Assembly (NCBI GenBank): GCA_021824145.1
Contig: JAKALM010000007.1
Span: 1 to 64,000, forward strand
DNA length: 64,000 nt
Reading direction: 5' to 3'
Source of the DNA: Bacteroidota bacterium
Lineage (GTDB): Bacteria > Bacteroidota > Ignavibacteria > Ignavibacteriales > Ignavibacteriaceae
Position 1 is the first letter of the stretch. Each line of letters opens with the position of its first letter. This document shows positions 25,854 through 63,900 of the stretch, in pieces. Under the pieces are notes generated by a model that was given only the letters and a program-made list of their open reading frames with translations, was not told where the DNA came from and did not search any database. A program made the position numbers and the translations under genes.

Positions 25854-28205
25854 CTATTTAAGAAGTATTAATTTTTTAGCTGAATTGTAATCATTAATCT
25901 TTAATAAATATAAGTAGATTCCGCTAGCTAAATTTTTATTTGCTGCATTAAATTCAATTTCATATAACCCAGCTGGTTTATTCTCATCAACTAAAGTTTC
26001 AACTTCCCTTCCTAGCATATCAAAAATTTTCAATGAAACATGACCTTCTTCTGCAATTTGATATTTAATTAAAGTTGATGGGTTAAATGGATTTGGATAA
26101 TTTTGAAATAATTTAAAACTATGAATTTCATTATTTTTATCACCACTGACTTTAGTAGGGACAAAAAATGTTCCGGTGCCTCCCGCATCGGCATATCTTT
26201 GTTTAAAATCTTGTAAATATTGATTTGCAATTTTAGCATCGTGAATAATTAATGTATTCTCATCATTTTCATTCTCCGCTGCCGATGACCAATTATGTGA
26301 ACCTGTTATAACAATCGGATCACTATTCCAAGTTTCGGCATCTATAATTCCATATTTATCATGTAATACACTCCCAGGATTTGGATGCATATCTGCAAAT
26401 GTTGAAAGATATGAATATTCGCTGCCGTTATCATTGATATTATTTATAACACCCCTAATATCTTTTACAGTGCTTGAATTCCTCATCTTAATTGCATCTG
26501 CAATATCATTTCTTGTAACAGTATATTGTGCCATATAAATATCATGATCGGAAGAATTTATTGCATTTATTATTTTACTTGTTGTTCCATCGGATGGACT
26601 AAAATATAAATATATAGTTCTACCGCCTATTGTAAATGTATGTTGAGTATTATCTGATTTTTGATTTCCGAATTTTGCATTTGCAGAACTGGGAGTATCG
26701 CCAGAACTTCCCCACATCTCTTCAAATTCTTTTTGATATGCTTTTGTTATGGTTGGATCGTTAATTTCAACAACATTATTTTTCCAATTGAGTTCGGTTG
26801 CAGTTACATTCCAAGAGCCTGTCCACAACCAATCATTTGCATCTATTGTATCTCTGGCATCGAAAACAAAAAATTTATTATGCATTATTCCTGGAAGTGT
26901 AGAAGAATCAGGTGGTCTTTGACTAATTAGAATACCAGCAGAAATTAATGATTGCATACTATTCTGAATCGGATTTGAAGTACTTCGGTGGTCATATACT
27001 ACTCGAATTTTTACACCCCTATTTTTTGCAAGAATTAATGCATTCGCAACTTCAGGCATATCTTGAAAACTGTAAACAGCCATATCTATTGAATAATTCG
27101 CTTTATTTATTCTATCAATTAGCTTTTGTCTATAATCTACATTACCTAATGCTGCATTCCCCGGATACGCCAATGTTGTATCAACAGGATAATTAAAATA
27201 AATATTAATTTTACCTAATGTAGGATTCGAAGAAACGGTTGTAACCGATTGAATATCACTTTCACTAGTTCCATTAGAGTTCGTGGAATATACTTTAAAA
27301 TAGTAAGTTGTTGATTGTTTTAGTCCATCAATTTTAATTTTATGGAATGTAGTATCTTCATTTACACTAATTGAATCCAACTCAAGCGAAGTTGTCAATC
27401 CATATTTTATTTTACTATCTCCGCTCCTAGCCGTGTTGAAAAAAACTGTAAAGGAAGAAGTATCTATATCGGAAGCTAACACAGGTGTTAAAATTAATGG
27501 CGCTCCGTTGGTTACAATATCTAGAATAAATCTTGGTAAAATTTGATAACCAGAATTGTATGGTGTTGCATTTTTATATTGACTTACAATTCCAATTAAA
27601 TCAACTTTTCCTGAGGGAATTGGTGTTCCAATAATAGTCGTTGCATTATTATCTATTCTCAAACCTTGAGATAATGTACCAGAAGGATCTGATATATCAT
27701 AATTGTATCCGCTTGTTCCTCCATTAAAATTTCCCGTGCCAGAAATGGTTACATTATTTATTCGAACAAGTTTACTTTCATATTCTTCTACACCATTCCA
27801 CGATTGGTTCATAATTTGGGAAAGCGTAACAACTTCAGGATCAACTGGATGATTTGAAGAAATTACATTAATTGTGCATCCAGTGAAATAATTCATTTCA
27901 GCCAAACCGTTATAATTACTTAGATTTCCTGATATTATTACTGAATCGCCAATATTCATTTTAGAAAAATACCCGCTGCCGTATAAAGCCACGCCCCCAG
28001 TTTCATCTTGAATTGATCCTGGACCGCTGCTTCCAAATTGGTTAGTTGATGTTATAATTCCTGTTATTGTAAATGTTTTTCCAACATTTAATGGCACTCC
28101 GTTTTTATCATTAATACGTACGCTATCAATTGAAGTTATTGTTTGGGAATATAATTCCAGAGTTATCGATAAAACTATAATTAAAATAGAATTAAATTTT
28201 TTCAT
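25854..28205 (-). CDS. Secreted phospholipase D-like protein with two HKD motifs and T9SS sorting domain
   Basis: A 783-residue exported protein. In order: signal peptide (1-20), an OB-fold region like those of extracellular nucleases (about 22-235), a fibronectin type III domain (about 240-330), a PLD domain with two intact HKD motifs (MHNKFFVFD with downstream GSWN; LHDKYGIID with GSHNWS), and a T9SS type A sorting domain (YPNPFNPSTLIKYQ onward). The HKD pair normally forms one phosphodiesterase site that cuts DNA or phospholipids. The OB-fold partner favours an extracellular nuclease but does not prove it. It is the last gene of the seven-gene surface operon, overlapping the preceding gene by four bases. 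Confidence 0.82.
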   Translation of the reverse strand: MKKFNSILIIVLSITLELYSQTITSIDSVRINDKNGVPLNVGKTFTITGIITSTNQFGSSGPGSIQDETGGVALYGSGYFSKMNIGDSVIISGNLSNYNGLAEMNYFTGCTINVISSNHPVDPEVVTLSQIMNQSWNGVEEYESKLVRINNVTISGTGNFNGGTSGYNYDISDPSGTLSQGLRIDNNATTIIGTPIPSGKVDLIGIVSQYKNATPYNSGYQILPRFILDIVTNGAPLILTPVLASDIDTSSFTVFFNTARSGDSKIKYGLTTSLELDSISVNEDTTFHKIKIDGLKQSTTYYFKVYSTNSNGTSESDIQSVTTVSSNPTLGKINIYFNYPVDTTLAYPGNAALGNVDYRQKLIDRINKANYSIDMAVYSFQDMPEVANALILAKNRGVKIRVVYDHRSTSNPIQNSMQSLISAGILISQRPPDSSTLPGIMHNKFFVFDARDTIDANDWLWTGSWNVTATELNWKNNVVEINDPTITKAYQKEFEEMWGSSGDTPSSANAKFGNQKSDNTQHTFTIGGRTIYLYFSPSDGTTSKIINAINSSDHDIYMAQYTVTRNDIADAIKMRNSSTVKDIRGVINNINDNGSEYSYLSTFADMHPNPGSVLHDKYGIIDAETWNSDPIVITGSHNWSSAAENENDENTLIIHDAKIANQYLQDFKQRYADAGGTGTFFVPTKVSGDKNNEIHSFKLFQNYPNPFNPSTLIKYQIAEEGHVSLKIFDMLGREVETLVDENKPAGLYEIEFNAANKNLASGIYLYLLKINDYNSAKKLILLK

Positions 28206-29290
28206 TGTCTTAAATCCGTAGAAAGTACAAATCGTAGAATTCTGTTATTTCCGGTATCCGCCACATATAAAATTTGATCGAAATACGCGACAGAATATGG
28301 CCCATTAAAAACTGCTGGTCCGCCAAAAGATTGCAGCTCATCTCCGAAAGGCGAAAATTTAAAAACACTATCCTTTTGTGCATCAGCAACAAAAATATTT
28401 CCAGCATCATCCAGACAAGATCCTTCTGGCTTTCCAAACTTATTTGGAGTCATAAATGCACCACCATCCGATGGAGTTAATCTAGCTTGATAATCTGCTG
28501 AAACAGCTGTAATAACATAAGTTAGCCATTGTGTTTTTAAACTGTTATTACCGGTTAATGTAATTATTATATCTATATTTTTTTTATTAAAAGAAGTTAT
28601 TGAACTAATTTGATTTGCAGAAACTAATCCCGAACTTAACGGATCAATATCGGGAATTCTTCCAATCAATGTATCCCCCACACCGCCGCCAAAGAGTTCT
28701 TTAGGACTGAAATATAAAATCGAATTATCAGGATCTATAAAACTTGAATTATTAGGCCCTGTTCTTGTTACATAGAAAGTGTTATTATAAAAAACAGCTA
28801 CGCCTGTATATTGTCTATTAGGGAAATTTAAATCAACCGGACGAGGCAATAGCATTGTTGCTGGTGCAGATCCTATTTGATGTTGTGCTGAAACTAAATC
28901 TAATTTAAATACTGCAGAATATGTTTGTGTCTGTCCGTTTACAACAGTATCAAACTGTGCACAAACTATCAAATTCAATTTATAATCTTCCGCCAATGCA
29001 ACCGGTCTTTTTATGTGTCTTGTTCCTAGAATGTTGCCATTAAGGTTCATCATTACTATACGATCGTTATAAGTATCTGCAACGTAGATGAACGGTTCTC
29101 TACCAATTATAATTGCTTGTGGTTTATTAAATCCTTCCCAAACTGGATTTAATTGAACATAAACTGTATCACCAGCAATATTGGCATTTCCACTATTTTG
29201 GTTAAGCTGACTTATATCAAACTTATCGCCACAGCTAATTATAAATGGCAACAATAAAATTAAAATCAATATAAAATTTTTATGCTTCAT
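28202..29290 (-). CDS. Propeller lipoprotein (NHL-type repeats)
   Basis: A 362-residue lipoprotein: the signal ends in a lipobox FIISC with Cys20 as lipid anchor. The mature part carries NHL-like repeats such as PFIYVADTYNDRIVMMN, GNIFVADAQKDSVFKFS and ILYVADTGNNRILRF, forming a six-bladed propeller. Such propellers bind ligands or partners, and some are enzymes, but no catalytic residues can be named. It overlaps the neighbouring genes on both sides by one and four bases, so it is translated together with the PorV-like and PLD-like genes. Confidence 0.8.
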   Translation of the reverse strand: MKHKNFILILILLLPFIISCGDKFDISQLNQNSGNANIAGDTVYVQLNPVWEGFNKPQAIIIGREPFIYVADTYNDRIVMMNLNGNILGTRHIKRPVALAEDYKLNLIVCAQFDTVVNGQTQTYSAVFKLDLVSAQHQIGSAPATMLLPRPVDLNFPNRQYTGVAVFYNNTFYVTRTGPNNSSFIDPDNSILYFSPKELFGGGVGDTLIGRIPDIDPLSSGLVSANQISSITSFNKKNIDIIITLTGNNSLKTQWLTYVITAVSADYQARLTPSDGGAFMTPNKFGKPEGSCLDDAGNIFVADAQKDSVFKFSPFGDELQSFGGPAVFNGPYSVAYFDQILYVADTGNNRILRFVLSTDLRQ

Positions 29291-30270
29291 TAAAATCCTA
29301 AAATGATTGAAAATCTTTGCGCAGAACCTAATTTTTCAAAATTAGAAAATGAATAATCAACAGTGCATTGCGCAATTCTAATAGGAATATTTACTCCCAA
29401 TCCTAAAGTATAATTTTGTTCATCTACATTGAACTTATAACCGCCTCTTAAGAAAATTATATTCTTCCAGCTATATTCAACACCTGTCGATACATTTTCA
29501 CTATTATCATTTGGATGGTTTAGCTGAATGGAAGTTGTAATCTTATTATCATCTGTTTGATAAGGTTCAAAAGCAAAACCAATCCTGAAAATAGTTGGAG
29601 GAGAAAATGCTTGCCAATCTGATTTTTCTCGTTTTCCTATTAAAACAACTTTTCCATCTGGCGCTAATTGATTTCCGAAATTAGAAACAGCAACAGCAAA
29701 TCGAGTTGTTCCTAATCCTGTCCAATAATACGTTCCTAAATCAATCATAACTCCGCGCATTTTTAATTTATCTAACGTCTCTTCAATATATCTTACTGTT
29801 CCACCGAAACTAAATTTGTCAGTCATCTTTCTAGAATAAGTAACTGCAACAGCAATATCTCCGTAACCGAAATATTCACCAGTACCAAAAGGTGAAACTT
29901 CTGTAGTTACAGGCATATCTTGAGTTGAAAGCGAAGTGAGTGCAATCCCGAAAGCATTAGTAGCATCAAGATGGTAAACTGCACCTAAAAAATCATGATT
30001 TATATCGACAACCCAAATATTATGTGAAAACATAATTTGATCATTATCGAATTGGACAAGTCCGGCAGGATTCCAATACAATGCTGAGACATCATTAGCA
30101 ACAGCAACAAATGCATCGCCCAATGAAGAAGCTCGGCTTCCAACTCCAATTTTTAAAAATTGTGCGGTGGAAATTCCAGCACGCTGTCCTCCAAGAGTTG
30201 GAAATAACTGCGCAAATGAATTATTGTTAAATAATATTGGAAATAATATAATTAAAAATATTTTTTTCAT
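29290..30270 (-). CDS. PorV/PorQ-type outer-membrane barrel protein (UPF0164-like)
   Basis: A 326-residue outer-membrane protein. After the signal peptide (1-20) the conserved start TAQFLKIGVGSRASSLGDAF and ALYWNPAGL matches PorV and its relatives, which carry cargo for type IX secretion or act as fatty-acid-transporter-like barrels. The C-terminus ends in a phenylalanine (IILGF), as outer-membrane barrels do. The start at 30270 is chosen because it gives a clean signal peptide and falls two bases after the receptor gene ends; a longer open frame upstream is not credible. It is paralogous to the protein at 59832-60866. Confidence 0.82.
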   Translation of the reverse strand: MKKIFLIILFPILFNNNSFAQLFPTLGGQRAGISTAQFLKIGVGSRASSLGDAFVAVANDVSALYWNPAGLVQFDNDQIMFSHNIWVVDINHDFLGAVYHLDATNAFGIALTSLSTQDMPVTTEVSPFGTGEYFGYGDIAVAVTYSRKMTDKFSFGGTVRYIEETLDKLKMRGVMIDLGTYYWTGLGTTRFAVAVSNFGNQLAPDGKVVLIGKREKSDWQAFSPPTIFRIGFAFEPYQTDDNKITTSIQLNHPNDNSENVSTGVEYSWKNIIFLRGGYKFNVDEQNYTLGLGVNIPIRIAQCTVDYSFSNFEKLGSAQRFSIILGF

Positions 30271-30272
30271 AA

Positions 30273-33077
30273 TCAAAACTTTAAACTGAATCCTAATTTT
30301 ATATTTCTCCTTGTTAAATAGCGTGAAGGATCGTATGGATAAGGAGAAATTGGTGCTTGTAAATCCGGGTATTTGGGATCGTTCCAAGTGTATGGAACCG
30401 GGTCTCCGCTTTGATATGCTTTGCCAGTTGCCGGATTTATTATTGCAGAATTTTGAGAATCTAAAAGATTATTTACTTCAACTATCAAAGAAAAATTTAA
30501 TCCGCCAAGTTTAATGTACTTTTCAAAGTTGAGATCAATCCAAAACCAATTTGCTCCAATTTTTGTATATAAATCAGTAGTTGATGCAATATAAATTGGC
30601 CTGCCCTGGTTATCGTAGCCAGTAAAGTATGCCGGTGTATATCTTTTGCCAGACTCAAAGAAAAATCTTAAATATAAATTGTAGTCATCCAAAATCCCTC
30701 TTCCAAAACCGAAGAATCCTTCATCTTTACCAACATAAAAATTTGTTGTTAATGATGCCGTCAATGGGCGATCCCATGGCATGTATTTTTCTTTTACTGA
30801 TTCATTTATATCTCCCTGCAAAACTAAAGCTCCTTCATCAGCAGAAGAGCTTTTGCCAGTAACGATTGCATAAGAAGCTGAAAGTGTTCCGTTAAACCAA
30901 TTACCAATTCTTTTTTTGAATTCAACTTCAACACCTCGTGAACGTGCATAATCTGAATTTACATATGTGACAAAACTTTTTGTAATAAATCTTGCTGATG
31001 TTAATTGCACTGATCTAGTATTTATGTAATCGAAAATATCTTTGTAATATGCTGTAACTGTTAAAACATCGTTTGGAGTAAATTGTGTCTTCAATCCAAG
31101 TTCGTATGCAACAGTTGTTTCGGGATTCAGATCCGGATTTCCAAATTGCTGAAATGAAGATTGTGCATTCATCGGATTTAACTTTGCATAAACAAACTGC
31201 GGCCTTGGCCATTTGCTGAAATGTCCGTATGAGAAAAATAACGTTTGATAATTTGAAACCGGATGTGAAATTCCTAAACGCGGACTTAATCGTGCTTTCC
31301 ATCTTCTATTTCCAAACCAGCCGAATGTATCATTCTTATATGCTTGCCTTGTTTGATTCGGAATTGTTACAACATCAGGATTGTTCACTGCATCGTCAAC
31401 ATATTTTCCGGGGAACCAATAATCCAATCTCATTCCAAAATTCAAAATCATTCCGCTGAAGTTTATATTATCCTGAGCATAAAAATCTCCAATTGCCGGA
31501 TAAACTTTGTAGATATCATTATTCAAGCCTAAAGTTCCAATCCATGGCTGATAAATATCTACTACTTGCATTTCCTGCAATTGTAATTGGAATCCAGCTT
31601 TGAATTTATTTTTCTCATCGAAAAAACTTGTTACATCACCTTTTAAAGAGTATTCTTCAACATAATGATCATGCCATGTGTACGGATTTCCATAATCCCA
31701 AAATCCATCACCTGGAATTACACCAATTGTATCATGCCCCAAATTAAAATATTGAATTGGGAAATTTGGAATGTCTTTAGGTTGAGTATACTGGTTCCAA
31801 TTTCTGCCATTTGCATCGGCTCTTAAATTTGAATAAAAATATCCTAAAGATAATTCGTAATATGTTTTAGCATTTAATGTATGCGTAAGCGTTAACGAAT
31901 GGTATTTATTATCATGTGTAAAAGTATTTGCCTGATTTAAGATATTTTGAAATTGATATTGATATCCAGGGCTTGATTCAACATACTCTAAATTTGTTTG
32001 TAGGGTTCCGGTATTTTGGCTTATCGAAACTGACTGATTAAATGAATAAGATAATTTAAAGGTTGGTGAATATTTATAAGTTAGTTTACCATTCCAATAC
32101 CAGTTGTTACTTAGATCTGGTGCAAACTTAGTTCCGTAAAAAGTTGATGAATACAGTCTCTGCGGTTTTGTTTTAAAATAACCCTGAGTAATTCCATCAG
32201 AAAAACCGACATAAAAATTACCAAAGAACGTAATTTTGCCTGGAATTTTTATTCCAAGTGCAGGTAGTATTGTAGTAGTTATTGGTTCTGGACCTCCGAG
32301 ATCAGCTTCCATAACTTGAGTATTAAAGACGTGAAACGAAGATGGATTTCCTAAATTATCTCTTTTGTAAGAGATATATCCGCTATAAGTATCACCGCCT
32401 TCTTTAGTTTTAACATTCACAACTCCAGAAGTAGCCTGTCCGTATTCAGCATTATAACCACCAGTTATAACTTCAACCTCTTCAATTGCATTTGCACTTA
32501 ATTGAAGTCCAAATCCGGTACCAGCCAAAGGATCTTGAACAGAAACGCCATTTAATAAAAATGCGTTTTCATATGTTCTGCCGCCACGGATGTGAATTTC
32601 ATTATCAGAATTTACAACACCGGCTTGTTGAGATACAACATCCGAAACATTTTCTACAACAGCATTTTTAATATCATCGGCAGAGATAACTGTTTTGCTC
32701 TGAGTTTCATCAACTTCAAGCAACGGCTTCGAACCAACAACAACAATATCATGGTCCAATGTTAATGCTGATTCTGTCATCTTCACATTTAATTCTTTTG
32801 TCTTATCAGCATCAATTTTGTAACCGGTATATTCAACTGTTTTGTATCCAATGAAAGAAATTGAAATTGTATAGCTGCCGGGTGCAATATTGGAAATTGT
32901 GAAATGCCCGTTGATATCTGTAGCAGCGCCGTAATAAGTACCCTTTAATAATATGTTAACTCCAATTAAAGGTTCATTCTTTGCAGCATCTATAATTTTA
33001 CCGGTTAGTTTTCCGTTACCTTGACCAAAGATTGAAACAAAACTTATTAATATAAAAATCAGTAAATATTTTTTCAT
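30273..33077 (-). CDS. TonB-dependent outer-membrane receptor
   Basis: A 934-residue receptor: signal peptide, a carboxypeptidase-regulatory-like domain (about 22-105, with GKIIDAAKNEPLIGVNILLK), a plug domain (about 130-235, including EIHIRGGRTYENAFLLNGV and the TonB-box-like ETQSKTVISADDI) and a 22-strand-type barrel ending in KLGFSLKF. These import large nutrients or interact with surface partners. No SusD partner is adjacent, so it is not a canonical SusCD pair; its partners would be the lipoprotein and secreted proteins of the same operon. The substrate cannot be told from sequence. Confidence 0.9.
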   Translation of the reverse strand: MKKYLLIFILISFVSIFGQGNGKLTGKIIDAAKNEPLIGVNILLKGTYYGAATDINGHFTISNIAPGSYTISISFIGYKTVEYTGYKIDADKTKELNVKMTESALTLDHDIVVVGSKPLLEVDETQSKTVISADDIKNAVVENVSDVVSQQAGVVNSDNEIHIRGGRTYENAFLLNGVSVQDPLAGTGFGLQLSANAIEEVEVITGGYNAEYGQATSGVVNVKTKEGGDTYSGYISYKRDNLGNPSSFHVFNTQVMEADLGGPEPITTTILPALGIKIPGKITFFGNFYVGFSDGITQGYFKTKPQRLYSSTFYGTKFAPDLSNNWYWNGKLTYKYSPTFKLSYSFNQSVSISQNTGTLQTNLEYVESSPGYQYQFQNILNQANTFTHDNKYHSLTLTHTLNAKTYYELSLGYFYSNLRADANGRNWNQYTQPKDIPNFPIQYFNLGHDTIGVIPGDGFWDYGNPYTWHDHYVEEYSLKGDVTSFFDEKNKFKAGFQLQLQEMQVVDIYQPWIGTLGLNNDIYKVYPAIGDFYAQDNINFSGMILNFGMRLDYWFPGKYVDDAVNNPDVVTIPNQTRQAYKNDTFGWFGNRRWKARLSPRLGISHPVSNYQTLFFSYGHFSKWPRPQFVYAKLNPMNAQSSFQQFGNPDLNPETTVAYELGLKTQFTPNDVLTVTAYYKDIFDYINTRSVQLTSARFITKSFVTYVNSDYARSRGVEVEFKKRIGNWFNGTLSASYAIVTGKSSSADEGALVLQGDINESVKEKYMPWDRPLTASLTTNFYVGKDEGFFGFGRGILDDYNLYLRFFFESGKRYTPAYFTGYDNQGRPIYIASTTDLYTKIGANWFWIDLNFEKYIKLGGLNFSLIVEVNNLLDSQNSAIINPATGKAYQSGDPVPYTWNDPKYPDLQAPISPYPYDPSRYLTRRNIKLGFSLKF

Positions 33078-34600
33078 AAAGTCAAACCAAAATCTTGAAA
33101 GAATACTTTATAAAACAGATTCTTAACGTTTGCATTTCCGCTGTTACATTTATGCAAAGGCAATCCGATGAAAAACATTTTTTTCTGAGAATCTGTAAAG
33201 CCGATATATCCCTTCATTTCATTGTTTGGGAAATAATAGATCGGATTACCGCCCAAAGGATTAACATAAAAAGATTTTACTCGAAATACATTTCCTGTTA
33301 GCGTTAAATCTGGATAGCCTGTTTTGGATGCATCTGTAACTTTCGTGTTGCTGTAAAGTGTAAGTTTTGCATCGCTTGAATCTGCGCTTATTGGCAAGAA
33401 TCCTTGAAGTACATTAAGATCAATGTTCTGAGGGAACTGCATCGAGAATGCAATTTTTCCTCCGGCAGTAATATAGCTTTGAGTTGTTGCACTTAATAAA
33501 TCCAGCGATGGATTGTTATCTGTATACCAAAAGACGTATTTAAATAATTTCAACGTCAATAAAAAAGTAACATTTAAGAAAGGCGGAGTTTGACTATGAA
33601 AATTATAGACATCATATTTATTGTTAAGTCCTAAACTGTCCAATACCGATGAATAAAACGAAGGTGCATTATCAGGTGTAACATAATCATTAACAATAAG
33701 GAAATTACCTTTAGGTTTTTTAACGTACCAATTTTTCCCTTCACCGGGTAATGAAATAAAGCTTGATTTGGCACCCGAAATATCTTCTGCTTGAACAAAC
33801 ACCTTATTATTTCCGTTTAATTTAAGGCCTGGAAGTTTTTGTGAAAAGAGATTAGATTCTAATCCACCTATAAGTATATCTGCACTTGCAGTTGATGAAC
33901 TGAAATCATTTGTACGGATAGAAATATTTCTTACAGCGCCATCAAGGGAAACAATATTATTAGGATTTGTAGTGTCATTCAACGCTACATTTATTTTAAT
34001 TATTGTCGCGTCTCCGTCTATATCGCTTGCAACCCAGCCAAACGTCATTGCGGGAAACGAAGTGTCTGGAAGTACTGTTAGTTGATCCCATGCAATTGTC
34101 GGCGCTGAATTTTTTATAGGAAAATTAATTGATGCCGGATGAGGATCAATCAAACCGATATCTACAAAATCTTCTCCGGAGTCCCAAACACCGTTTCCAT
34201 TCTTGTCAGTAAATGGTTCCGGACCATAATCAATTCCATTTTGGAAAACATCTTTGTCATAAACTCCATTTCCGCCGTTATCAACCGCAGAAACCTGGAA
34301 TGTATAATTTGTATCTGTTACACCAATCTGTAAGGCAAACAAACTATCATTTGATTTTGTAAAATTCCAATGCTTGCCGTCCCACGAAAAATAATATCCA
34401 ACAATAAATCCATCAGGATCGTCTCCCCACCAATGTACATCAATTTTACTCGGCTGCCTGCTTATTGACGAATCAGGATATAAAAAGATTCCTGTTTTGG
34501 GCGGTTGGTTGCCGATTGGATTATTCACCATGTCCTTAAAACATGATGATAATAATAATGCTAAAGAAATTATTGATATTATTTTAACAGTTTTAATCAT
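33074..34600 (-). CDS. Lipoprotein with extracellular-type repeats, unknown function
   Basis: A 508-residue lipoprotein with lipobox LLLSSC (Cys20). The N-terminal part (about 40-120) looks like a fibronectin type III domain (VHWWGDDPDGFIVGYYFSWD), then a calcium-loop-like segment DKNGNGVWDSGED (about 133-145) and a C-terminal region (about 290-500) with alternating beta and helix, including a possible flavodoxin-like stretch (GNFLIVNDYVTPDNAPSFY). I do not recognise the family. It overlaps the receptor start by four bases, so it is the best candidate for a surface partner of the receptor. Confidence 0.7.
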   Translation of the reverse strand: MIKTVKIISIISLALLLSSCFKDMVNNPIGNQPPKTGIFLYPDSSISRQPSKIDVHWWGDDPDGFIVGYYFSWDGKHWNFTKSNDSLFALQIGVTDTNYTFQVSAVDNGGNGVYDKDVFQNGIDYGPEPFTDKNGNGVWDSGEDFVDIGLIDPHPASINFPIKNSAPTIAWDQLTVLPDTSFPAMTFGWVASDIDGDATIIKINVALNDTTNPNNIVSLDGAVRNISIRTNDFSSSTASADILIGGLESNLFSQKLPGLKLNGNNKVFVQAEDISGAKSSFISLPGEGKNWYVKKPKGNFLIVNDYVTPDNAPSFYSSVLDSLGLNNKYDVYNFHSQTPPFLNVTFLLTLKLFKYVFWYTDNNPSLDLLSATTQSYITAGGKIAFSMQFPQNIDLNVLQGFLPISADSSDAKLTLYSNTKVTDASKTGYPDLTLTGNVFRVKSFYVNPLGGNPIYYFPNNEMKGYIGFTDSQKKMFFIGLPLHKCNSGNANVKNLFYKVFFQDFGLTL

Positions 34601-34630
34601 TTACAGTACTATCTACTTTCACAAAATTTG

Positions 34631-34670
34631 GAATCAATTGCAGCATTGAATTTCTCCAATGCTGCTTAAT
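34631..34670 (-). terminator. Hairpin downstream of the second surface-operon gene
   Basis: Arms GCAGCATTG (34640-34648) and CAATGCTGC (34657-34665) form a 9-bp stem in the 71-base gap before the next gene. The T-run after it is weak, so it may attenuate or process the transcript, giving less of the five downstream genes, rather than end it. Confidence 0.5.
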
Positions 34671-34671
34671 T

Positions 34672-36840
34672 TTACTTCAACAACATCATCTTTTTAACTT
34701 GATAGAAATTACCTGCATTTATACTATAGAAATATACTCCAGAGCTTAATTTACCAGCATCAAAGCTTACTTGGTAAGTTCCTGGTAATTTCTGTTGATT
34801 TACCAATGTCTCTACTTCCTGACCGAGAATATTAAATATCTTCAACGTTACCATGCTTTCTTTTGGAACGGAAAACCTTATAATTGTTGAAGGATTGAAA
34901 GGGTTTGGATAGTTTTGCTCAAGTGTAAAAGTCTTTGGTGCTTTTGCTTCAAGTTCTTTTATATCAGTCGGAGTAAAGCCGATAAAATCATCAGCTTTTC
35001 TTGGACATAATTTATAATTACTATAAGAATAGTAAAGTATACCTTGAAGTTCAGTAAACTTCGAACCTGTGGTTATTCTTATTTTATTAGGATTGTTCGC
35101 AAAGTTTGCATCCCAAAAGTTTTCATAATTATTATTTCCATCCTGTAAAGAAATTCTTGTTGAGTCTCCGCCGTTTCCATCGCTTACAAACATTTCACCG
35201 TAATTATTATTTACGCTCGAAACGTTCGGGCCAGGATTTCCGTCTGCATTTTCTCTAACTACAGTTACATTTTTATAATTGATTAAAACACTTTCCCATT
35301 GCTCAGCAGCAACTGTGCTGTTGTAGCTTCTTCCAATAGTTCCGGTTGGTACAGTTACTGAAGCTGGAATTGGATTTCCATGAGAGTTTACGGTAATATT
35401 TGTTAAAGAATCGATTGCAGTTACACTATAATTTTCTTGAATTCTTCCAGTAAGTGTAATGCTGTCACCGGCTTTTAATTTTAGAACATCAACACCTTTC
35501 AACCCTAAAGTACCGATCATAATTCCAGTCCAAGGACCGCTGCCGTCTTGCATGTAAACACGTTTTGGATAATTGCTTGAATACAATCCAGCATAATCTG
35601 AAGTATCAGCAGTAACAATTCCGCTGATTGTAACATAATATCCATTATATGAACTATAACCGCTTCCGAATGGACTGTATTGAACATCGCGAATTTTTAA
35701 AGGTTCATTTAGAACCTGAAAGAAATAATTACCTTTTACTGTATCGCTTGGAGTATAACCAGTTAATCCAAGATTATCATTTGCAGTAACAAAATAATCT
35801 ACAAGCGTAGAATCTGTGCTAATTCCATTTATAACTGCTGTATATAGTGTAGTATCATTTAAAGATTTAGTCATCGGAATTGTAACTCTAGCTTGATTAC
35901 CAATTTTATAATGCAATGCTGCATTCATAACATGACCGCTTCCGCCAAGAATTTTAGCCGAAATTGTAACTTGTTGATTTGTACCTACTTGTATTTTATC
36001 TCTCAAAATGTTTGATATAAGTGGCGGAGTTAGAGTTATATAAATATCATTTGGATATAAAGGAATTATTTCAAATGTTCCGTTATAATATGAAATTATT
36101 CCTCTAATCATATTTATGGGTGTACCGTCTGCCGGTGCCTGGTATGTAGACCATGGCAGTTTATAATTTAATCTGAAATATCTGGATTGTGGATAAGCAA
36201 TTAAATAATTTCCATTTGCATCATAAATATTGAATTGCCCAGTAGTGGTATTTCGATTTGCAGAAATTACATTATGAAGTTCCACATACATTCCGGAATA
36301 TTTTAAAGCTTCATTAATACTTTGCCCGTTATTCATAAAATCTGTAACTGATAACTGGATTGGGTCTGGACGCTTTGGAAGTTTTCCTAAAATATTTACT
36401 GGCGTAATAGGATTAAGCAACGTCATCAATTCATTTGTTTGGCCATAAGGTGTAACAACTCCAGTCAGCTCAACAACATCTGAAGTATCTAATAGGTCAA
36501 AAAATGTACCCTGGCTTGCAACAGTGGTATCATTTTGAAGTACATTTAATCCAGCCCAAAATTGACTAGAGTTAGTATCTTGAATATAAATTCCCCATCG
36601 AGCGCCGTAATACATTATTGGAGTTCTTAAAGAGTCTACTGAAGGATCAACCAATGGTCGAACCATAACTACGCCTCTAACTCTTACAGTATCATTAGCT
36701 AATGGTGAGTTTACAAATCCCTTTGTAGCAACTGAATCTATGTATTGAATATCATGAATTGAAACTAAAGGATATTGGGATTGAGCAAAAGCTAAACCCA
36801 CTATCGAAATTAAAGTGAGCAGTAGTAATCTAATTCTCAT
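34672..36840 (-). CDS. T9SS-exported protein with two OB-fold domains (DUF5689-like)
   Basis: A 722-residue secreted protein: signal peptide (1-19), an OB-fold-type domain (about 25-265) like that seen at the N-terminus of extracellular nucleases, an Ig-like segment (about 275-375), a second OB-fold-type domain (about 385-640) and a T9SS type A sorting domain (about 650-722, NYPNPFNPSTIIRFS, ending MLLK). No nuclease domain follows the OB folds, so it probably binds nucleic acid, sugar or protein. The C-terminal PLD-like protein of the same operon carries a similar OB-fold region. Confidence 0.78.
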   Translation of the reverse strand: MRIRLLLLTLISIVGLAFAQSQYPLVSIHDIQYIDSVATKGFVNSPLANDTVRVRGVVMVRPLVDPSVDSLRTPIMYYGARWGIYIQDTNSSQFWAGLNVLQNDTTVASQGTFFDLLDTSDVVELTGVVTPYGQTNELMTLLNPITPVNILGKLPKRPDPIQLSVTDFMNNGQSINEALKYSGMYVELHNVISANRNTTTGQFNIYDANGNYLIAYPQSRYFRLNYKLPWSTYQAPADGTPINMIRGIISYYNGTFEIIPLYPNDIYITLTPPLISNILRDKIQVGTNQQVTISAKILGGSGHVMNAALHYKIGNQARVTIPMTKSLNDTTLYTAVINGISTDSTLVDYFVTANDNLGLTGYTPSDTVKGNYFFQVLNEPLKIRDVQYSPFGSGYSSYNGYYVTISGIVTADTSDYAGLYSSNYPKRVYMQDGSGPWTGIMIGTLGLKGVDVLKLKAGDSITLTGRIQENYSVTAIDSLTNITVNSHGNPIPASVTVPTGTIGRSYNSTVAAEQWESVLINYKNVTVVRENADGNPGPNVSSVNNNYGEMFVSDGNGGDSTRISLQDGNNNYENFWDANFANNPNKIRITTGSKFTELQGILYYSYSNYKLCPRKADDFIGFTPTDIKELEAKAPKTFTLEQNYPNPFNPSTIIRFSVPKESMVTLKIFNILGQEVETLVNQQKLPGTYQVSFDAGKLSSGVYFYSINAGNFYQVKKMMLLK

Positions 36841-36856
36841 AAAATTACTCTCTTTC

Positions 36857-38974
36857 CTATTTAATTATTAAAAACTTTCCTCTCTTAATATTACCAGTTT
36901 TTATATCTTTAACGGTAAATAGATATAACCCGGTAGCAATTGCTTGATCATTGTTTGTCAATAAATCCCACGCATCTTCCCCGCCAGTCATCACCTGCTT
37001 TCCATCGCTGGCATAAGTTTGAAACCATTTTAAGCTCGATCCATTGCTGTTCTGATGATGTTCAATATTTTTTACAATATCACCGGAAAGCGTGTAAATC
37101 GTAATTTCACAATCCGAAGGTAGATTATAGAAATAAATTTTTCGTAAACGTTCTGTGCTTCCATCCCAAATTGCATTTCCATAATATGGATTCGGATAAA
37201 CTCCAACTTCAGCTTTATCATCATTATTAGGAAGCGTTCCTGGAAGAACTCTATTTAAGGAAGCAAGCGGACTCGATTCTAAGCTTTCTAAATTATTAGC
37301 GGGATCGCCTTTATCGAAAGCTGTTACTGCAAATAAATATTGCCAGCCATTTAATAAATTATCAATATCAAATCTGTAATAATATTTTGTTGTATCATCT
37401 GGGAATGTTACTGGATCTTTTAATTCAACTTTTGAAAATCCAGTATTGTAACCAATTGAATTTCCTGCGCTGTCAAATTGCGCAAGTAGTACCAAGGATG
37501 ATCTATTATCTTGTGCAAGATTTAAATCATAACCAGCTTCGGTCCTGTAAATTTTGTAACCTTCAAAATCTCTTTTGCCTGAAATTGGATCGACAGAATT
37601 TTCAGATCTTTTATTCCAATAAATACTTACTTTTTGATTTTCTGGCACAACTTTAACGACAGGAACTTGCGGAGGTGCCGGTAAAATATATCGTGTAATA
37701 ACTCCATTGCCATCTAAATCTTCACCAGGGTCTAATTTACCGTTTCTATTCCTATCTTCTCCGTAATATGCACGCAAAGCCCATTCAGCATTTGAATATA
37801 AATTAAGTTTCTGTTCAGGGCTATCAAGTGTTGAAGGATCGCTTCCATATTTTTTTGCGCATACAATTGCATATACAACATTAATTGAATCACCCGGCGC
37901 AATACGTTTAAAATCTCCTTTAGTTATTAATACTGATCTATTGGATGGAGTTTTTAAACTTGCTGGGTCAACACCTTTATTATATCTATTAGTACCGCCA
38001 AAATATCCTTGCATTTTTCTATAACGATCAATATCGTTTGTTGGCGAAAAGAAATTTGGGTCAGAAGTATTTTTATATTGCCAGCTTACAAAGTTTACAG
38101 AAGTTAAAGTATCTTCGCCAACAACAAATGCACTGTCAAGTGTTGGCGTAGATCCCAAAAACTGAATTCCTACATAACTATTTGTATAACCTGGATCGCC
38201 GTCTGCGTCAAATTCATAAGCAATTTTCATTGAATCGCTGTAACCATCACCGCCATGAGTAAAGAATGGAGCGCCTGTTCTTGGCGAAGTAATTTTTGTA
38301 TTTCGAACTACAGCATCTGTCCATAATCCAACATAAACACTGTCAATATATTTATTAGTCACATTTTTAATTGTGTAATTCATGATGACAAAGAAATCTG
38401 CAAACGGATAATTCCAGGCATAACATTCTTGATGAACTGCTACACCTAACGGATTATGATCTTGAATCACTTCACCGTTTTGAAGAACTAAATTTGTGTC
38501 AACATAATCCATTACAAAATCTTGGTGAGAAACTGCGGAAGGGTCGTAATATCTAGAATCTAAAAGTGAAGACCTTTCTATAATTTTACTGCCTGGTGCA
38601 TTTGTAAATTCAAATCCGCCGCCGCGAGTAGAAACTGATGAAGCATCAACTGAGCCTGTAGAAACAAAAGGACCGACTCTCCCTTTTCCCAGTGAATCAT
38701 TGCTTATAAAACCGCCAATCCACAAACCGCCGTCAAAAATATGTTCGATGCCGCTGCCTAAAGGATATTCACAGCTTGGTTGTTGCGGCCAAAGTGCAAA
38801 TCCGTTTCCATACATTCCAAAGTTTGTAACTGTTAGACCAATACTGCCAACGTTTGTGTATTTGGAATTATCGTCATCGAGTTTTTTATTTAACTTTTTA
38901 TCTCCGCCATCAGGGCGAAAAGCAAAAGTTATTAAAGCTAATAATAGAACTAAAAATTTAAATTTTGATTTCAT
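36857..38974 (-). CDS. Large T9SS-type secreted protein, first gene of the surface operon
   Basis: A 705-residue exported protein with signal peptide (about 1-19), a long N-terminal domain with many aromatic and Gly/Asp residues (YAWNYPFADFFVIMNYTIKN, GGLWIGG), a calcium-loop-like RNRNGKLDPGEDLDGNG near 412-428, a fibronectin III-like domain (about 435-545) and a C-terminal sorting domain of the variant type (NPYYGNAIWDGS... ending KRGKFLIIK). The domain order is the same as in the giant protein at 60938-64000, including the RDFEGYKIYRTEAGYD element, so the two are paralogs. Function unknown. A structured leader precedes it. Confidence 0.75.
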   Translation of the reverse strand: MKSKFKFLVLLLALITFAFRPDGGDKKLNKKLDDDNSKYTNVGSIGLTVTNFGMYGNGFALWPQQPSCEYPLGSGIEHIFDGGLWIGGFISNDSLGKGRVGPFVSTGSVDASSVSTRGGGFEFTNAPGSKIIERSSLLDSRYYDPSAVSHQDFVMDYVDTNLVLQNGEVIQDHNPLGVAVHQECYAWNYPFADFFVIMNYTIKNVTNKYIDSVYVGLWTDAVVRNTKITSPRTGAPFFTHGGDGYSDSMKIAYEFDADGDPGYTNSYVGIQFLGSTPTLDSAFVVGEDTLTSVNFVSWQYKNTSDPNFFSPTNDIDRYRKMQGYFGGTNRYNKGVDPASLKTPSNRSVLITKGDFKRIAPGDSINVVYAIVCAKKYGSDPSTLDSPEQKLNLYSNAEWALRAYYGEDRNRNGKLDPGEDLDGNGVITRYILPAPPQVPVVKVVPENQKVSIYWNKRSENSVDPISGKRDFEGYKIYRTEAGYDLNLAQDNRSSLVLLAQFDSAGNSIGYNTGFSKVELKDPVTFPDDTTKYYYRFDIDNLLNGWQYLFAVTAFDKGDPANNLESLESSPLASLNRVLPGTLPNNDDKAEVGVYPNPYYGNAIWDGSTERLRKIYFYNLPSDCEITIYTLSGDIVKNIEHHQNSNGSSLKWFQTYASDGKQVMTGGEDAWDLLTNNDQAIATGLYLFTVKDIKTGNIKRGKFLIIK

Positions 38975-59831: not shown

Positions 59832-60866
59832 TTATAACTGCAAACCTATATCAATAAATTGCACGCTTTCTAACCTTCCATAAGTAGCCCATCCGTAATT
59901 AAACATTACAACAAATTGATTATTAATTTTGTAATTTACTCCGCCTCCTAATGTTAAACCTTCTTCACTATTTCTCATAAAAAGTGATTTGTAACCTGCG
60001 CGGACAAAAAACATTTCATTGTAAGCAAATTCCAAACCGCTATTCAAATATTCTGTATTGTCATTTGGATGGTTTGCATCAACAGCTCCTGTAAGTCGGA
60101 TATATCTACTTTTAATTAGATTCATTGATAAACCAATTCTAAATGTTAAAGGAAGATCATAGCTATCAGTATTGTATTGAGATAAAATATTATTTGGTCC
60201 AGAGTTCACGTTGTTATTTGGATCAGTATTAAAGAGTAAATCTCTACCAGACATTTGCATTTTAGAACCAAAGTTAGATATGCTTGCTCCAATTACTAGA
60301 TCGTTGAATGGTGTTATATAATAGGTTCCTACATCAACGGCAAAGCCACTTGCACTTTCATTCCAAATAGCTTCTCTAATATATTTTGCTTGAAATCCAA
60401 AAGAAAACCTATCAGTAAGTTTTCTAGCAAACCCGACACCAATTGCAATTGAACTTGCATCCCAATATTCTCCGTTCCCATCAGGGTAATCAAATGTTCT
60501 TACTTTATCTTGAGGAACTGATAATGAAGTAAGATCTGCAAATAATACACCTAAATCAGGAATATTAATTGACGCCGCAGCAAAGTCATAGCTTATATCG
60601 GCAAGCCAATTTGCATGATTGAATGTAACTTGAGAGTTTCCATCTTCATTTGCTAATCCTGCTGGATTATAATAGATAGCATAAATATCATTGCTTAAAC
60701 CAGCATATGCACCACCCATACCAATGGATCTTGCTCCAGCACCAATTTTCAAAAACTGACCAGCAGTAGTACCAACTTTAGCAGTGCTTCTATCTGATTG
60801 TGCAAAAACTAAATTGCTTGTTAATAATAATATACTTGTTAAATAAATTGTTAAAAATTTTTTCAT
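59832..60866 (-). CDS. Second PorV/UPF0164-like outer-membrane protein
   Basis: A 344-residue outer-membrane barrel with signal peptide (1-22). TAGQFLKIGAGARSIGMGGAYAGL and AIYYNPAGLAN match PorV-type proteins, and it is a paralog of the one at 29290-30270 with the same start motif. It follows the giant T9SS-type protein gene by 71 bases, with a hairpin between them, so cargo and barrel are made as a pair here too. Confidence 0.82.
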   Translation of the reverse strand: MKKFLTIYLTSILLLTSNLVFAQSDRSTAKVGTTAGQFLKIGAGARSIGMGGAYAGLSNDIYAIYYNPAGLANEDGNSQVTFNHANWLADISYDFAAASINIPDLGVLFADLTSLSVPQDKVRTFDYPDGNGEYWDASSIAIGVGFARKLTDRFSFGFQAKYIREAIWNESASGFAVDVGTYYITPFNDLVIGASISNFGSKMQMSGRDLLFNTDPNNNVNSGPNNILSQYNTDSYDLPLTFRIGLSMNLIKSRYIRLTGAVDANHPNDNTEYLNSGLEFAYNEMFFVRAGYKSLFMRNSEEGLTLGGGVNYKINNQFVVMFNYGWATYGRLESVQFIDIGLQL

Positions 60867-60900
60867 AATTATAAAATCCTGTTAGTTTGATTTTTCAAAC

Positions 60901-60932
60901 ATGGCTCAGTTAAACTAAATTAACGGAGCCAT
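60901..60932 (-). terminator. Hairpin between the giant surface protein and its PorV-like partner
   Basis: Arms ATGGCTCAGTTAA and TTAACGGAGCCAT form a 12-bp stem with one mismatch. The T-run behind it is poor, so it may lower rather than stop transcription into the barrel gene. The position matches the hairpin at 34631-34670 in the first surface operon. Confidence 0.5.
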
Positions 60933-60937
60933 AAATT

Positions 60938-63900
60938 TTATTTTATAACTGCAAACCTTCCAATTTTTTCACCAATACCTGGCGCATCTACATGGAAGAT
61001 ATATACTCCATATGCAATTCTCTCACCTTCGTAGCTCAATAAATCCCACGAAGCCATACTCGTATTATCGTCTTTCTCTATCGTCTGTACCAATTCACCA
61101 GTGATAGTATAAATTCGAATTGTACATTTAGGAGGAAGATTTCTAAATTGAATTTGTCTATCGCCTCTTGCATCAGTAAATATTCCAGGATTTTCTGCAA
61201 TACTGTAAGCCACATACGGATTGGGAACAACATAAATATTATTAAGATCACTTTTAGCCAAATCAGTTTTGAACTCAGCAGGCACTGTATGATACAAATA
61301 TGTATCTCCAGTTTGAAATGGTTTCAATGTCTTAACTGCAAATACATCACCTGGTTTTGGATAAACAGGAGTAATTCCACTGTTAGGCAAACTAAAATCA
61401 ACCTCATAACTAACTGTAGAACCTGATGCAGTTTGCGGTCTAAGAATTATCGGTTGATCAAAACTCCATCTTGTTAAAGTTTTTGTTCCTGTTTTAACAA
61501 ACAACAAATACTTTGCGGGTTGATTTGTTGTAGTATTAATGATATTAAATGGACAAACAATTTTTACACTTCCTAAATTGGTAATTGCAGTATCACCAGG
61601 ATGCAACCATCCTCCAGTATCAGTGGTATCAAATCCCGTCCATCTAATTTCCCAATCTGCACGATAAGGAACCTTTGGATTTCCTGCCGAAGGTGGAAAA
61701 ACTAGTTTATAATTTATGTTTATTTTGTTATTATTTACATAACCTGAATTTACCGTATCTAGTACAAGCGGATCATTTTGAACTTTAATTCTCAAACCAT
61801 CAAAGCTATTATTTCCATCTTCATTATTAATAAGCTTGCTTTGATAAACTGGATAATATCTATATACAGCTTTAAATATTTCTCCAAGTGGCAACGAACC
61901 TTTTGATGAACCTCTAATTCTTCCATACTGCGAATTTAAAACATATTTTGAAGCATCAACAAGATTATTACCCGAATCAAATAATTGAAAACTTTCTGGA
62001 ATAATATTTGGCTGGCTTAAAGATACAAATACTGTATCATTCGATTTGAAAGTTTCATTTATTCCGGTAGAATCAATTACATTATAAGTTAGAGTGTCAG
62101 AAAATACCACTTTATAAAGTTTATCTTGAACTGCAAGATTATTTAAGACTTGCATTTTAATTTTCCCCGTTGAGTTACCAGTAATCTGTTGAGGTGTTCC
62201 ATCCAAACCTGCCTCAGCATTTTTTACTCCAGATGGCAAAGGGCCAGGGGTTGCTTCTGCAGTATTGACGTCAAATTTAAGTTTGCCAGTAATTGGATCT
62301 TTGGAAATTACTGATTGACATTCAGATGGTGGAATACTAAACTGAATAGATCCCATATCGTAAGAAACTAAAGCATAATAGTATGTAACTCCATTCTGCA
62401 CTGTTGAATCGACAAATTGGTGGACTAAACCAGTGTTGCTGCCAATATAATATTTTACAGCATGGCCAGTATATTCAACTGGAAAGAATCCAGATAGAGA
62501 ATCAACTAAATCCCATTGAGCTCTTTTTCCAGTGTTAGGGTCAAACAAAGCCTGACCTAAAAATGGGGTTCCATTGCCATCAGTAATTGTATAAACATCG
62601 CTAAAATTATAATCTCTGCTTCTATAAAGTTTATAACCTTCAAAGTCATTTATTCGTGTAAATGGATCAAATGATTTTTCAGCTTTTGTATCCCAATAAA
62701 GTGTAACTCTACCATTGCCAGGCACAGCTGTAAGTGTTGGCTTGTCTGGTGGTTTTGCAAATCTGTAGGATGATTCTAAAATTCTTTGAGAAGTTTCAGC
62801 ATTAAGGACTAATGCATCCAGATTATCACCGAATAAAATTGACATTGAAAATCTTTGTGATTGAAGTTTTTCTAATTTCATCGGGCCAGTATCAAAGTTA
62901 AAAATATTATCACCTGGCTGTTGCAATAGTGTTTGGTTTGGATCAATACTATCTGATGAAGCCCATTCCCACATTAATGAATAATTCAATGGAACGTTCG
63001 GTAAGCCGTTTGTATACTGTGCTGCATGGAAAGCAGTTAATCCTAATTGATCTGATTCATTTACATCTCTCATTCCAAAATCTGGTTCAGAACCAGCCCA
63101 TAAATATCCTGGCAGTTTTTCGTCTGATATTGGTTCACCAGCGTCATATTTACCATTTCCATTTTGATCTAGAAACCAAGCCTGAGAAGGTTTACCATCT
63201 CCTTCGCCGTAATCTGGACCTGGATAGTTTGGTGAATTAGGGCCAATTCCATCGATACCAACATCGTCTTTTGATGGATCCCAATCGCCATTTTCATCAC
63301 CAGACCATCTTGGTTTTGGGGCACCATATACTGCGGTGTATTTAGTTACATCAGCTATTCCAGTGGTCAAAGGATATTTTATCCCGTCGATATAATAACC
63401 AGCTGAATTGTATGGACTTTCATCAATAATACCATCATCATCATTATCAATTCCATCAGTAGAATTTGTTGGTGATTCCAAAAATTTCCAACCAAAATAC
63501 CCAGGTACTAATCCGCCCATTCCTTTAAAGTCACTATCCCAAGCATAAACCATACTTCTAGCTCTTTGGTCGTATGCATCAGCAAGCGGACCTTTAGGAG
63601 GAATGAAGAAAGCAAGATCATCGCTGTAATCACTGTAACCGCCTATATGAGGATCGCCATGCATTCCAAAATAAACTTTTGGAAGATCTTTATCGCTCAC
63701 GTTTGTAATTTGATAAACTACAAATAAAATATCTTTAGCTAAGGCATTATTAAACTGAAAGATTCTAACAGCACAATCTAATCCCATACCTCGTTTAGTT
63801 GAATCATTTAAAAATGGATAGTATGGAAATTGCTTATTTGTATAATCATCCATAACGTAATATGCTTCTTCATCAGGTGCCGTTGCTTGATCTCCTAAGA

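Follow-up and report, generated by a model that had tools for sequence, protein, structure and literature searches.

The window analyzed here is a stretch of 64,000 nucleotides from a Bacteroidota bacterium of the family Ignavibacteriaceae (GenBank assembly GCA_021824145.1, contig JAKALM010000007.1, positions 1 to 64,000), and our study concerns seven tightly packed genes on its minus strand, running from position 38974 to 25854. An earlier note on this DNA had described them as an operon of seven genes for exported proteins; the seven open reading frames (ORFs), here called g1 to g7, are indeed present at these coordinates, and their products are predicted to be exported. We lean slightly towards reading the first six genes as encoding an uptake complex around a TonB-dependent receptor, which would work without SusD and carry a capture protein delivered by the type IX secretion system (T9SS) and tethered by a barrel of its own. 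The features of the locus are the following.

36857-38974, minus strand: g1, 705 residues; secreted protein with a super-beta-sandwich, an EF-hand/dockerin-like loop, an FN3-like domain and an "NPY" T9SS C-terminal domain
34672-36840, minus strand: g2, 722 residues; secreted protein containing OB-like regions and ending in a canonical type A T9SS tail
34640-34665, minus strand: hairpin inside the gap between g2 and g3 (34601-34671)
33074-34600, minus strand: g3, 508 residues; lipoprotein (by eye) with two Ig/FN3-like domains and a C-terminal glutamine-amidotransferase/ThuA-like domain
30273-33077, minus strand: g4, 934 residues; TonB-dependent receptor with a CarboxypepD_reg N-terminal domain, plug and barrel
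29290-30270, minus strand: g5, about 326 residues; outer-membrane barrel of the PorV/PorQ family
28202-29290, minus strand: g6, 362 residues; NHL beta-propeller lipoprotein (by eye)
25854-28205, minus strand: g7, 783 residues; OB/FN3-like regions, two PLD domains and a type A T9SS tail

The start of g5 was set to 30270 by the family profile, the start at 30387 given by the ORF finder being too early. The coordinates give intergenic spacings from g1 to g7 of +16, +71, -4, +2, -1 and -4 nt, and the description of these genes as overlapping or nearly touching holds for five of the junctions (+16 to -4 nt) and fails for the 71-nt gap between g2 and g3. Read by eye, the N-termini of g1, g2, g4, g5 and g7 resemble ordinary signal peptides, while g3 and g6 both have a lipobox cysteine, C20, which is invariant in 57 aligned sequences of g3 and in 23 of g6. 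The tails of g2 and g7 pass the cut-off of 23 bits of the type A T9SS model TIGR04183, with 45.2 and 35.2 bits, respectively. Three T9SS-type secreted proteins had been claimed; two of them have this tail, and the third, g1, falls below the cut-off and has a divergent domain instead, described below. Scans for promoters (75 sites against a shuffle mean of 82) and terminators (4 sites against 8.5) gave no excess.

The order of the first six genes is conserved well beyond the species. An ortholog of g5 with at least 65% identity was found in 22 of 41 genomes (that of the window and 40 relatives); the next matches are clearly set apart, reaching at most 42%. Flanking sequences were taken from 20 of the 21 relatives with an ortholog, leaving out G012, whose contig has 3959 bases, and in these 20 close loci the order g1-g2-g3-g4-g5-g6 is intact wherever the contig reaches. 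Scanning a collection of species genomes with a g1 alignment returned 464 related stretches, the best 80 of which were used; their titles are mostly Ignavibacteria, Ignavibacteriales, Ignavibacteriaceae, Melioribacteraceae and unplaced Bacteroidetes/Bacteroidota, with a few Chlorobiota. When ORFs matching none of the seven genes were skipped, the expected gene came next among these best 80 loci in 77 of 78 cases for g2, 62 of 64 for g3, 54 of 54 for g4, 51 of 51 for g5 and 50 of 50 for g6. These loci share some records with the 20 close ones, and the two sets are not independent. Alignment A2 was drawn from 71 of the 80 loci (seven with an incomplete g1 and two others were omitted) and alignment A3 from all 56 loci with a full-length g3.

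In a sample of 296 genomes from across the phylum, 90 contain a g1 match at an E-value of 1e-30, almost always in a single copy. Twenty distant loci were taken from these 90 genomes, all of other families (9 within the same class, 11 outside it), and all six genes stand in order in 18; the exceptions are L163, which lacks g2, and L166, which lacks g3 to g6. Since the order is conserved across close, public and distant loci, the arrangement of g1-g6 is not due to chance. This comparison of gene order in relatives, proposed as a check of the operon idea, speaks in its favor, with the amendment that the conserved operon comprises six genes and that the seventh is optional.

The slot that follows g6 is variable. 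In the 20 close loci, it holds full-length relatives of g7 in 12 (in one of them with another T9SS-tailed protein intervening), another T9SS-tailed protein instead in 1, and no such gene in 5, where g6 is directly followed by atpD; in 2 the slot is cut by the end of the contig. A clear ortholog of g7 was found in 2 of the 20 distant loci, against 18 that keep g1-g6. Consequently, g7 is a frequent but dispensable neighbor of g1-g6. As a separate observation, the space between g6 and atpD resembles a swap site for T9SS cargo, occupied by PLD-type proteins, by longer forms of 1086-1104 residues, by another tailed protein, or by none.

The gap between g2 and g3 is the only sizeable one in the core, and in the window it contains a hairpin of 11 uninterrupted pairs, G-T pairs allowed. 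Hairpins of at least 8 pairs were found in 40 of 49 such gaps, the one in the window included, compared with 19% of shuffled gaps, and their sequences differ. The comparison took gaps of 25-300 nt, allowed G-T pairs and used mononucleotide shuffles, and the related gaps are not independent of each other. We infer that the hairpin may set the amounts of the secreted g1 and g2 relative to g3-g6.

The barrel encoded by g5 passes the PorV/PorQ family model NF033709 (225.3 bits, cut-off 90) and stays under the cut-offs of both equivalog models, with 82.1 of 250 bits for PorV (NF033710) and 85.7 of 220 bits for PorQ (NF033711). Canonical PorV and PorQ are encoded elsewhere in the genome, with 257.6 and 255.5 bits, above these cut-offs. 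SprA and PorU were found as well, the gene of canonical PorV lying next to that of PorU; by these four components, the ones searched for, the T9SS is present in this organism. Among solved structures, the only sequence relative of g5 at E-values up to 0.1 is the PorV of Flavobacterium johnsoniae. By these scores, g5 is classified as a member of the PorV/PorQ family that is neither canonical PorV nor canonical PorQ. At another locus, L064:9250-12401, the canonical PorQ gene adjoins one for a protein of 695 residues without an NCBIfam match (E-values up to 1e-5), possibly a divergent PorZ.

The first gene of the operon belongs to a conserved family that escapes the usual domain libraries: g1 has no Pfam match at E-values up to 0.1 and nothing above the cut-off in Pfam and NCBIfam combined, and its sequence search of the PDB returned only matches at chance level. 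Its structural model (mean predicted local distance difference test score, pLDDT, of 84.5) comprises a super-beta-sandwich (residues ~35-375), a loop (~407-425) that by eye looks EF-hand/dockerin-like and calcium-binding, an FN3-like domain (~440-555) and a C-terminal domain (~590-705), and not the repeats implied by the previous label of "large repeat protein". Foldseek gave mixed Ig-type matches for both g1 and g3, and the domain matches obtained with VIA-align were clearer. With the latter, the N-terminal domain of g1 aligns with dextran dextrinase (Z 19.2 over 255 residues), with a GH116 enzyme (Z 18.9) and with enzymes of the cellobiose- and cellodextrin-phosphorylase type (Z about 17), so that the modeled domain matches the super-beta-sandwich of glycoside hydrolases and phosphorylases. 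Such enzymes have a helical catalytic barrel, which has no counterpart in the g1 model.

The C-terminal domain of g1 scores 16.3 bits with the type A model TIGR04183, under its cut-off of 23, and neither g1 nor its paralogs match a type B or type C T9SS substrate model of NCBIfam at E-values up to 0.1, in a library whose content for these models is unconfirmed. In eight of nine g1-like proteins this domain opens with PNPY (PNPA in the ninth), hence our name "NPY" domain, where g2 and g7 have YPNPF. The sixth residue from the end is a lysine in eight of the nine and an arginine in the ninth. In the F. johnsoniae structures described in PMC10994853, a lysine near the C-terminus contacts PorV, and our reading of the alignment is that the lysine of the NPY domain may occupy the same position. 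The C-terminal domains of seven of the eight g1 paralogs match the C-terminus of the PorZ model (E-values from 9.5e-4 to 4.5e-6, 18-25 bits), and in the three paralogs where a type A match is also present, the PorZ match is the better one.

The genome of the window has many further PorV-family matches, and eight of these genes lie in the same trio as in the operon, that is, with a gene for a TonB receptor and one for a large g1-related protein; there are thus nine trios. Their distance matrices agree closely (r of 0.97 between receptor and NPY protein, 0.95 between receptor and barrel, and 0.92 between NPY protein and barrel, with at most 1 of 20,000 permutations as high) and, therefore, the three genes have been duplicated and inherited together.

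To follow this linkage in other organisms, we used a profile of the NPY C-terminal domain (A5) and one of the nine barrels (A4), both made from the genome of the window alone; the other nine genomes are therefore independent of the profiles. TonB plugs were searched in the first four genomes, and two features were considered near if they lie within 12.5 kb. A domain was considered strong at 70 bits or more in the first four genomes and at 65 bits or more in the next six, and a barrel at 160 bits or more; these cuts were chosen after seeing the gaps in the scores (72 to 57, 65 to 50, 163 to 144, and 191 to 145). In the four genomes, we counted 45 of 131 NPY rows (those of 39.5 bits and above) and 53 of 74 barrel rows, omitting one 89-bit second piece of a gene and 20 rows below 39 bits; in the six genomes, all 44 strong barrel rows and 32 of the 35 weak ones were counted, the three omitted being one that overlaps a strong barrel and two with no strong NPY domain within 180 kb. 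All plug rows of the four genomes and all NPY rows of the six were entered. The weak barrel rows include fragments and FadL-like proteins, judged by name or score.

In the first four genomes, all 38 strong NPY domains are near a strong barrel, and all 32 strong barrels are near an NPY domain. A TonB plug lies near 35 of the 38 domains (the mean expected by chance is 5.3) and near 31 of the 32 barrels. None of the 21 weaker PorV-family rows, which include the canonical PorV and PorQ of the genome of the window, is near an NPY domain or a plug. Tails of type A are far more numerous, with 89 matches in the genome of the window and at least 150 in each of the other three. In the six further genomes, from other families, strong NPY domains and strong barrels number 44 each, and the two counts agree genome by genome (12, 11, 10, 5, 4 and 2); every domain is near a barrel and every barrel near a domain, and none of the 32 weaker rows is near an NPY domain. 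Domain and barrel are at most 2 kb apart in 38 of these 44 cases. The remaining cases number six, and the six-gene operon, whose g2-g4 separate the NPY domain from the barrel, occurs once in each of the six genomes. Pooling the ten genomes, 82 of 82 NPY domains are near a barrel and 76 of 76 barrels are near an NPY domain, compared with 0 of 53 weaker rows; the genomes have 2 to 12 strong barrels each, and nine of the ten have as many domains as barrels. It had been suggested that the operon may encode a dedicated secretion-and-anchoring unit, and it probably does contain one, given that g5 is not the canonical PorV or PorQ and that T9SS C-terminal domains of a special class are paired with barrels like it. 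In the remaining genome, G018, two regions (C1:1742697-1755259 and 2537305-2548257) hold arrays of four NPY domains, each array beside a single barrel, which suggests that one barrel may serve several related substrates.

Of the other products of the core, g3 and g6 have folds that also occur in TonB-coupled capture complexes. The AlphaFold model of g3 (pLDDT 88.9) has two Ig/FN3-like domains, with tandem FN3 matches, followed by an amidotransferase/ThuA-like domain; the PDB sequence search with g3 also returned FN3 domains. Its C-terminal domain aligns with amidotransferases (Z about 14), with a ThuA-like protein (Z 12.9) and with chain 8aa2_G of the levan utilisome (Z 11.5 over 184 residues), which from its length and fold would be the glycan-binding lipoprotein of that complex. 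That lipoprotein is described as having two Ig-like domains and a ThuA-like levan-binding domain and as sitting on the lip of SusC (PMC7618045), and the modeled g3 has the same three-domain layout. Residue W358 of the amidotransferase-like domain reaches at least 90% conservation over 39 aligned rows, 19 of them distant; as a pointer to glycan binding by g3, this is only suggestive. The receptor g4 scores 108 bits with the SusC/RagA model TIGR04056, under the cut-off of 368, and its N-terminal domain resembles that of a solved SusC homolog. The family scan identifies g6 as an NHL propeller; in the BtuB transporter, the seven-bladed propeller lipoprotein BtuG forms the lid (PMC10404256). No SusD domain was found in the seven proteins, and PF07980, the sole SusD model used on genomes, had no match in any of the four genomes, with Bacteroides ihuae as a positive control.

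Because of the folds of g1, g3 and g6 and the absence of PF07980 from the four genomes, we give a small preference to g1-g6 as a TonB uptake complex that lacks SusD and includes a capture protein delivered by the T9SS and tethered by a barrel. This outer-membrane complex would work like the "pedal bin" of SusCD or BtuBG without SusD: g4 would be the TonB-driven channel, g3 and g6, the latter comparable to the BtuG lid, would be placed around its mouth, and g1, exported by the T9SS, would be retained at the surface through its C-terminal domain bound to its own barrel, g5, as PorZ on PorQ. The product of g7 and the other T9SS cargo of the downstream slot would be optional surface proteins. We infer the binding of g1 to g5, the escape of g1 from sortase cleavage, the complex with g4, the direction of transport and a carbohydrate-like substrate; our guess from the modeled folds is that a carbohydrate or glycoconjugate would be the most likely substrate. 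More broadly, there may be a further T9SS route in the lineages studied, a proposal to which we assign an even chance, in which NPY domains are exported and held by their own PorV-family barrel, usually one per substrate, and in which these pairs replace SusD-type lids on roughly one TonB receptor in three (in the four genomes, 34 of 90 plugs), giving a nutrient uptake built by the T9SS.

The proposed arrangement can be compared with four known systems. Type A substrates are described as all using one carrier, PorV, whereas for type B substrates cognate PorP/SprF barrels are established (PMC12618676). As in the latter, the substrate gene is linked to its own barrel gene and the barrel would carry or anchor the substrate (PMC12618676, PMC9143113); here, in contrast, a PorV/PorQ-family barrel is combined with a type-A/PorZ-like C-terminal domain and usually with a TonB receptor. 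By analogy, the NPY-barrel pairs would be a PorV-family counterpart of the type B arrangement. In Porphyromonas gingivalis, the anchors of PorZ and PorU appear to be PorQ and PorV, respectively, and both anchored proteins retain their C-terminal domains (PMC5562754, PMC10202324); according to a proposal in a review, cognate PorV-like barrels may shield such domains from cleavage (PMC10202324). A T9SS-exported protein held by a PorV/PorQ-family barrel, with its C-terminal domain retained, would be common to both cases; here, however, each genome has several barrel-substrate pairs, most of them linked to TonB receptors, and nothing indicates a part in sortase processing. With the SusCD levan utilisome (Bt1760-1763), the locus shares a receptor with a SusC-like N-terminal domain and a lipoprotein that combines two Ig-like domains with a ThuA-like one; it differs in having no SusD in the operon, nor by PF07980 in the four genomes, in its T9SS-exported super-beta-sandwich protein, and in that no glycoside hydrolase was recognized among the core genes. 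The combination of TonB receptor and propeller surface lipoprotein recalls BtuB-BtuG, although the propeller here is of the NHL type, the receptor is not of the B12 family by its score, and there are additional T9SS components.

Several observations weigh against our reading. The linkage across ten genomes is strong evidence of shared function, not of contact, and the tree of 15 barrels from the genome of the window is poorly resolved and does not show the NPY-linked barrels as one clade. The PorZ matches of the paralogs are far under the cut-off of 260, which is one for the whole protein, and g1 itself has no PorZ match at E-values up to 0.1. Super-beta-sandwich and amidotransferase-like folds are common, and the best match of the g3 C-terminal domain is a GH42 enzyme (Z 15.4), not a surface glycan-binding protein. 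With 34 of 90 plugs near a strong NPY domain in the four genomes, most receptors there do without an NPY-barrel pair, and in G018 the 16 strong NPY domains exceed the 10 barrels. The operon is usually single-copy and its core has no recognized carbohydrate enzyme or regulator, which sets it apart from known polysaccharide loci. Finally, a SusCDE operon is reported from Melioribacter roseus, a member of the same group (PMC3534657), and the absence of SusD is therefore not true of the whole group.

Conservation across unlike genomes and a core without catabolic genes would also suit a unit for surface structure (adhesion, coat or sensing), in which dedicated barrels display g1, g2 and the optional cargo and the receptor serves assembly or signaling instead of nutrient import. 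Type B substrates with cognate PorP/SprF barrels are known or predicted adhesins (PMC12618676, PMC9143113), which lends this alternative some weight; nevertheless, a TonB plug gene lies near 35 of the 38 NPY domains and the folds of g3 and g6 occur in TonB-coupled capture complexes, and we consider it unlikely. The combination of TonB receptor and propeller lipoprotein would agree as well with an importer of a cofactor such as a corrinoid, with g6 as the lid. However, there is no Rfam match at E-values up to 1 between positions 20000 and 46000, hence no recognized cobalamin riboswitch there, g4 reaches 35.6 bits with a B12 receptor model whose cut-off is 599.7, and g1-g5 would be left unexplained; B12 import was set aside on the lack of an Rfam match and the weak receptor match, and a cofactor importer in general seems to us very improbable.

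We attach equally little probability to the scheme of the earlier note, in which the PLD enzyme degrades DNA or phospholipid and the products are imported. By eye, g7 keeps both HKD motifs, it matches PLDc_2 and the nuclease NucT (1.5e-18, under the model cut-off), g2 and g7 both show partial matches to the ExeM/NucH nuclease model, and full-length relatives of g7 accompany 12 of the 20 close loci. On the other side, g7 is absent with atpD next in 5 of these loci, replaced in 1, and clear in 2 of the 20 distant ones, so that DNA or phospholipid as the target of the core is not supported; the scavenging scheme was rejected because g7 is dispensable. The alternative to which we give the least credence makes the operon an accessory part of the dome of the beta-barrel assembly machinery (BAM), with g5 as the FadL-like BamG and g3 and g6 as canopy lipoproteins. 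The BAM complexes of Bacteroidota contain BamG, a 14-strand FadL homolog that binds the surface lipoprotein BamH, and an operon usually single-copy and widely conserved would fit such a role. Still, g5 has no BamG match (NF053685) at E-values up to 0.1, one paralog reaching 31 bits for a cut-off of 250, and its sole solved sequence relative in that range is the F. johnsoniae PorV, which is why this candidate was set aside; furthermore, 206 of the 296 genomes of the phylum have no g1 match at 1e-30.

Returning to the SusD-less uptake complex, its wider interest lies in the barrels. PorV-family barrels are numerous here, each accompanied by a particular substrate and in most cases by a TonB receptor, which does not fit the picture of one carrier for all. 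If the pairs bind as predicted, the abundance of PorV-like genes in these genomes would be accounted for, substrate-carrier specificity would have another form to study, and TonB uptake would have a mechanism in genomes that seem to lack SusD. The g1 family, conserved and without a Pfam match, also gains likely partners in this way. No description of PorV-family barrels linked to particular substrates and TonB receptors was found in the open-access literature, a scope that leaves out most subscription papers and all of bioRxiv.

The window also contains part of a second paralogous unit, whose TonB receptor lies outside it.

59832-63853, minus strand, continuing to C1:67383 in the genome: module M6, with its PorV-family barrel at 59832-60866
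from 60938, past the window edge, minus strand: NPY protein of M6

Regarding the neighborhood of the operon, which among close relatives is steady for genes of this surface type, neither atpD nor lipA was seen beside it in the 20 distant loci. In the 20 close loci (L038-L057), atpD lies just downstream in 14 and lipA just upstream in 7.

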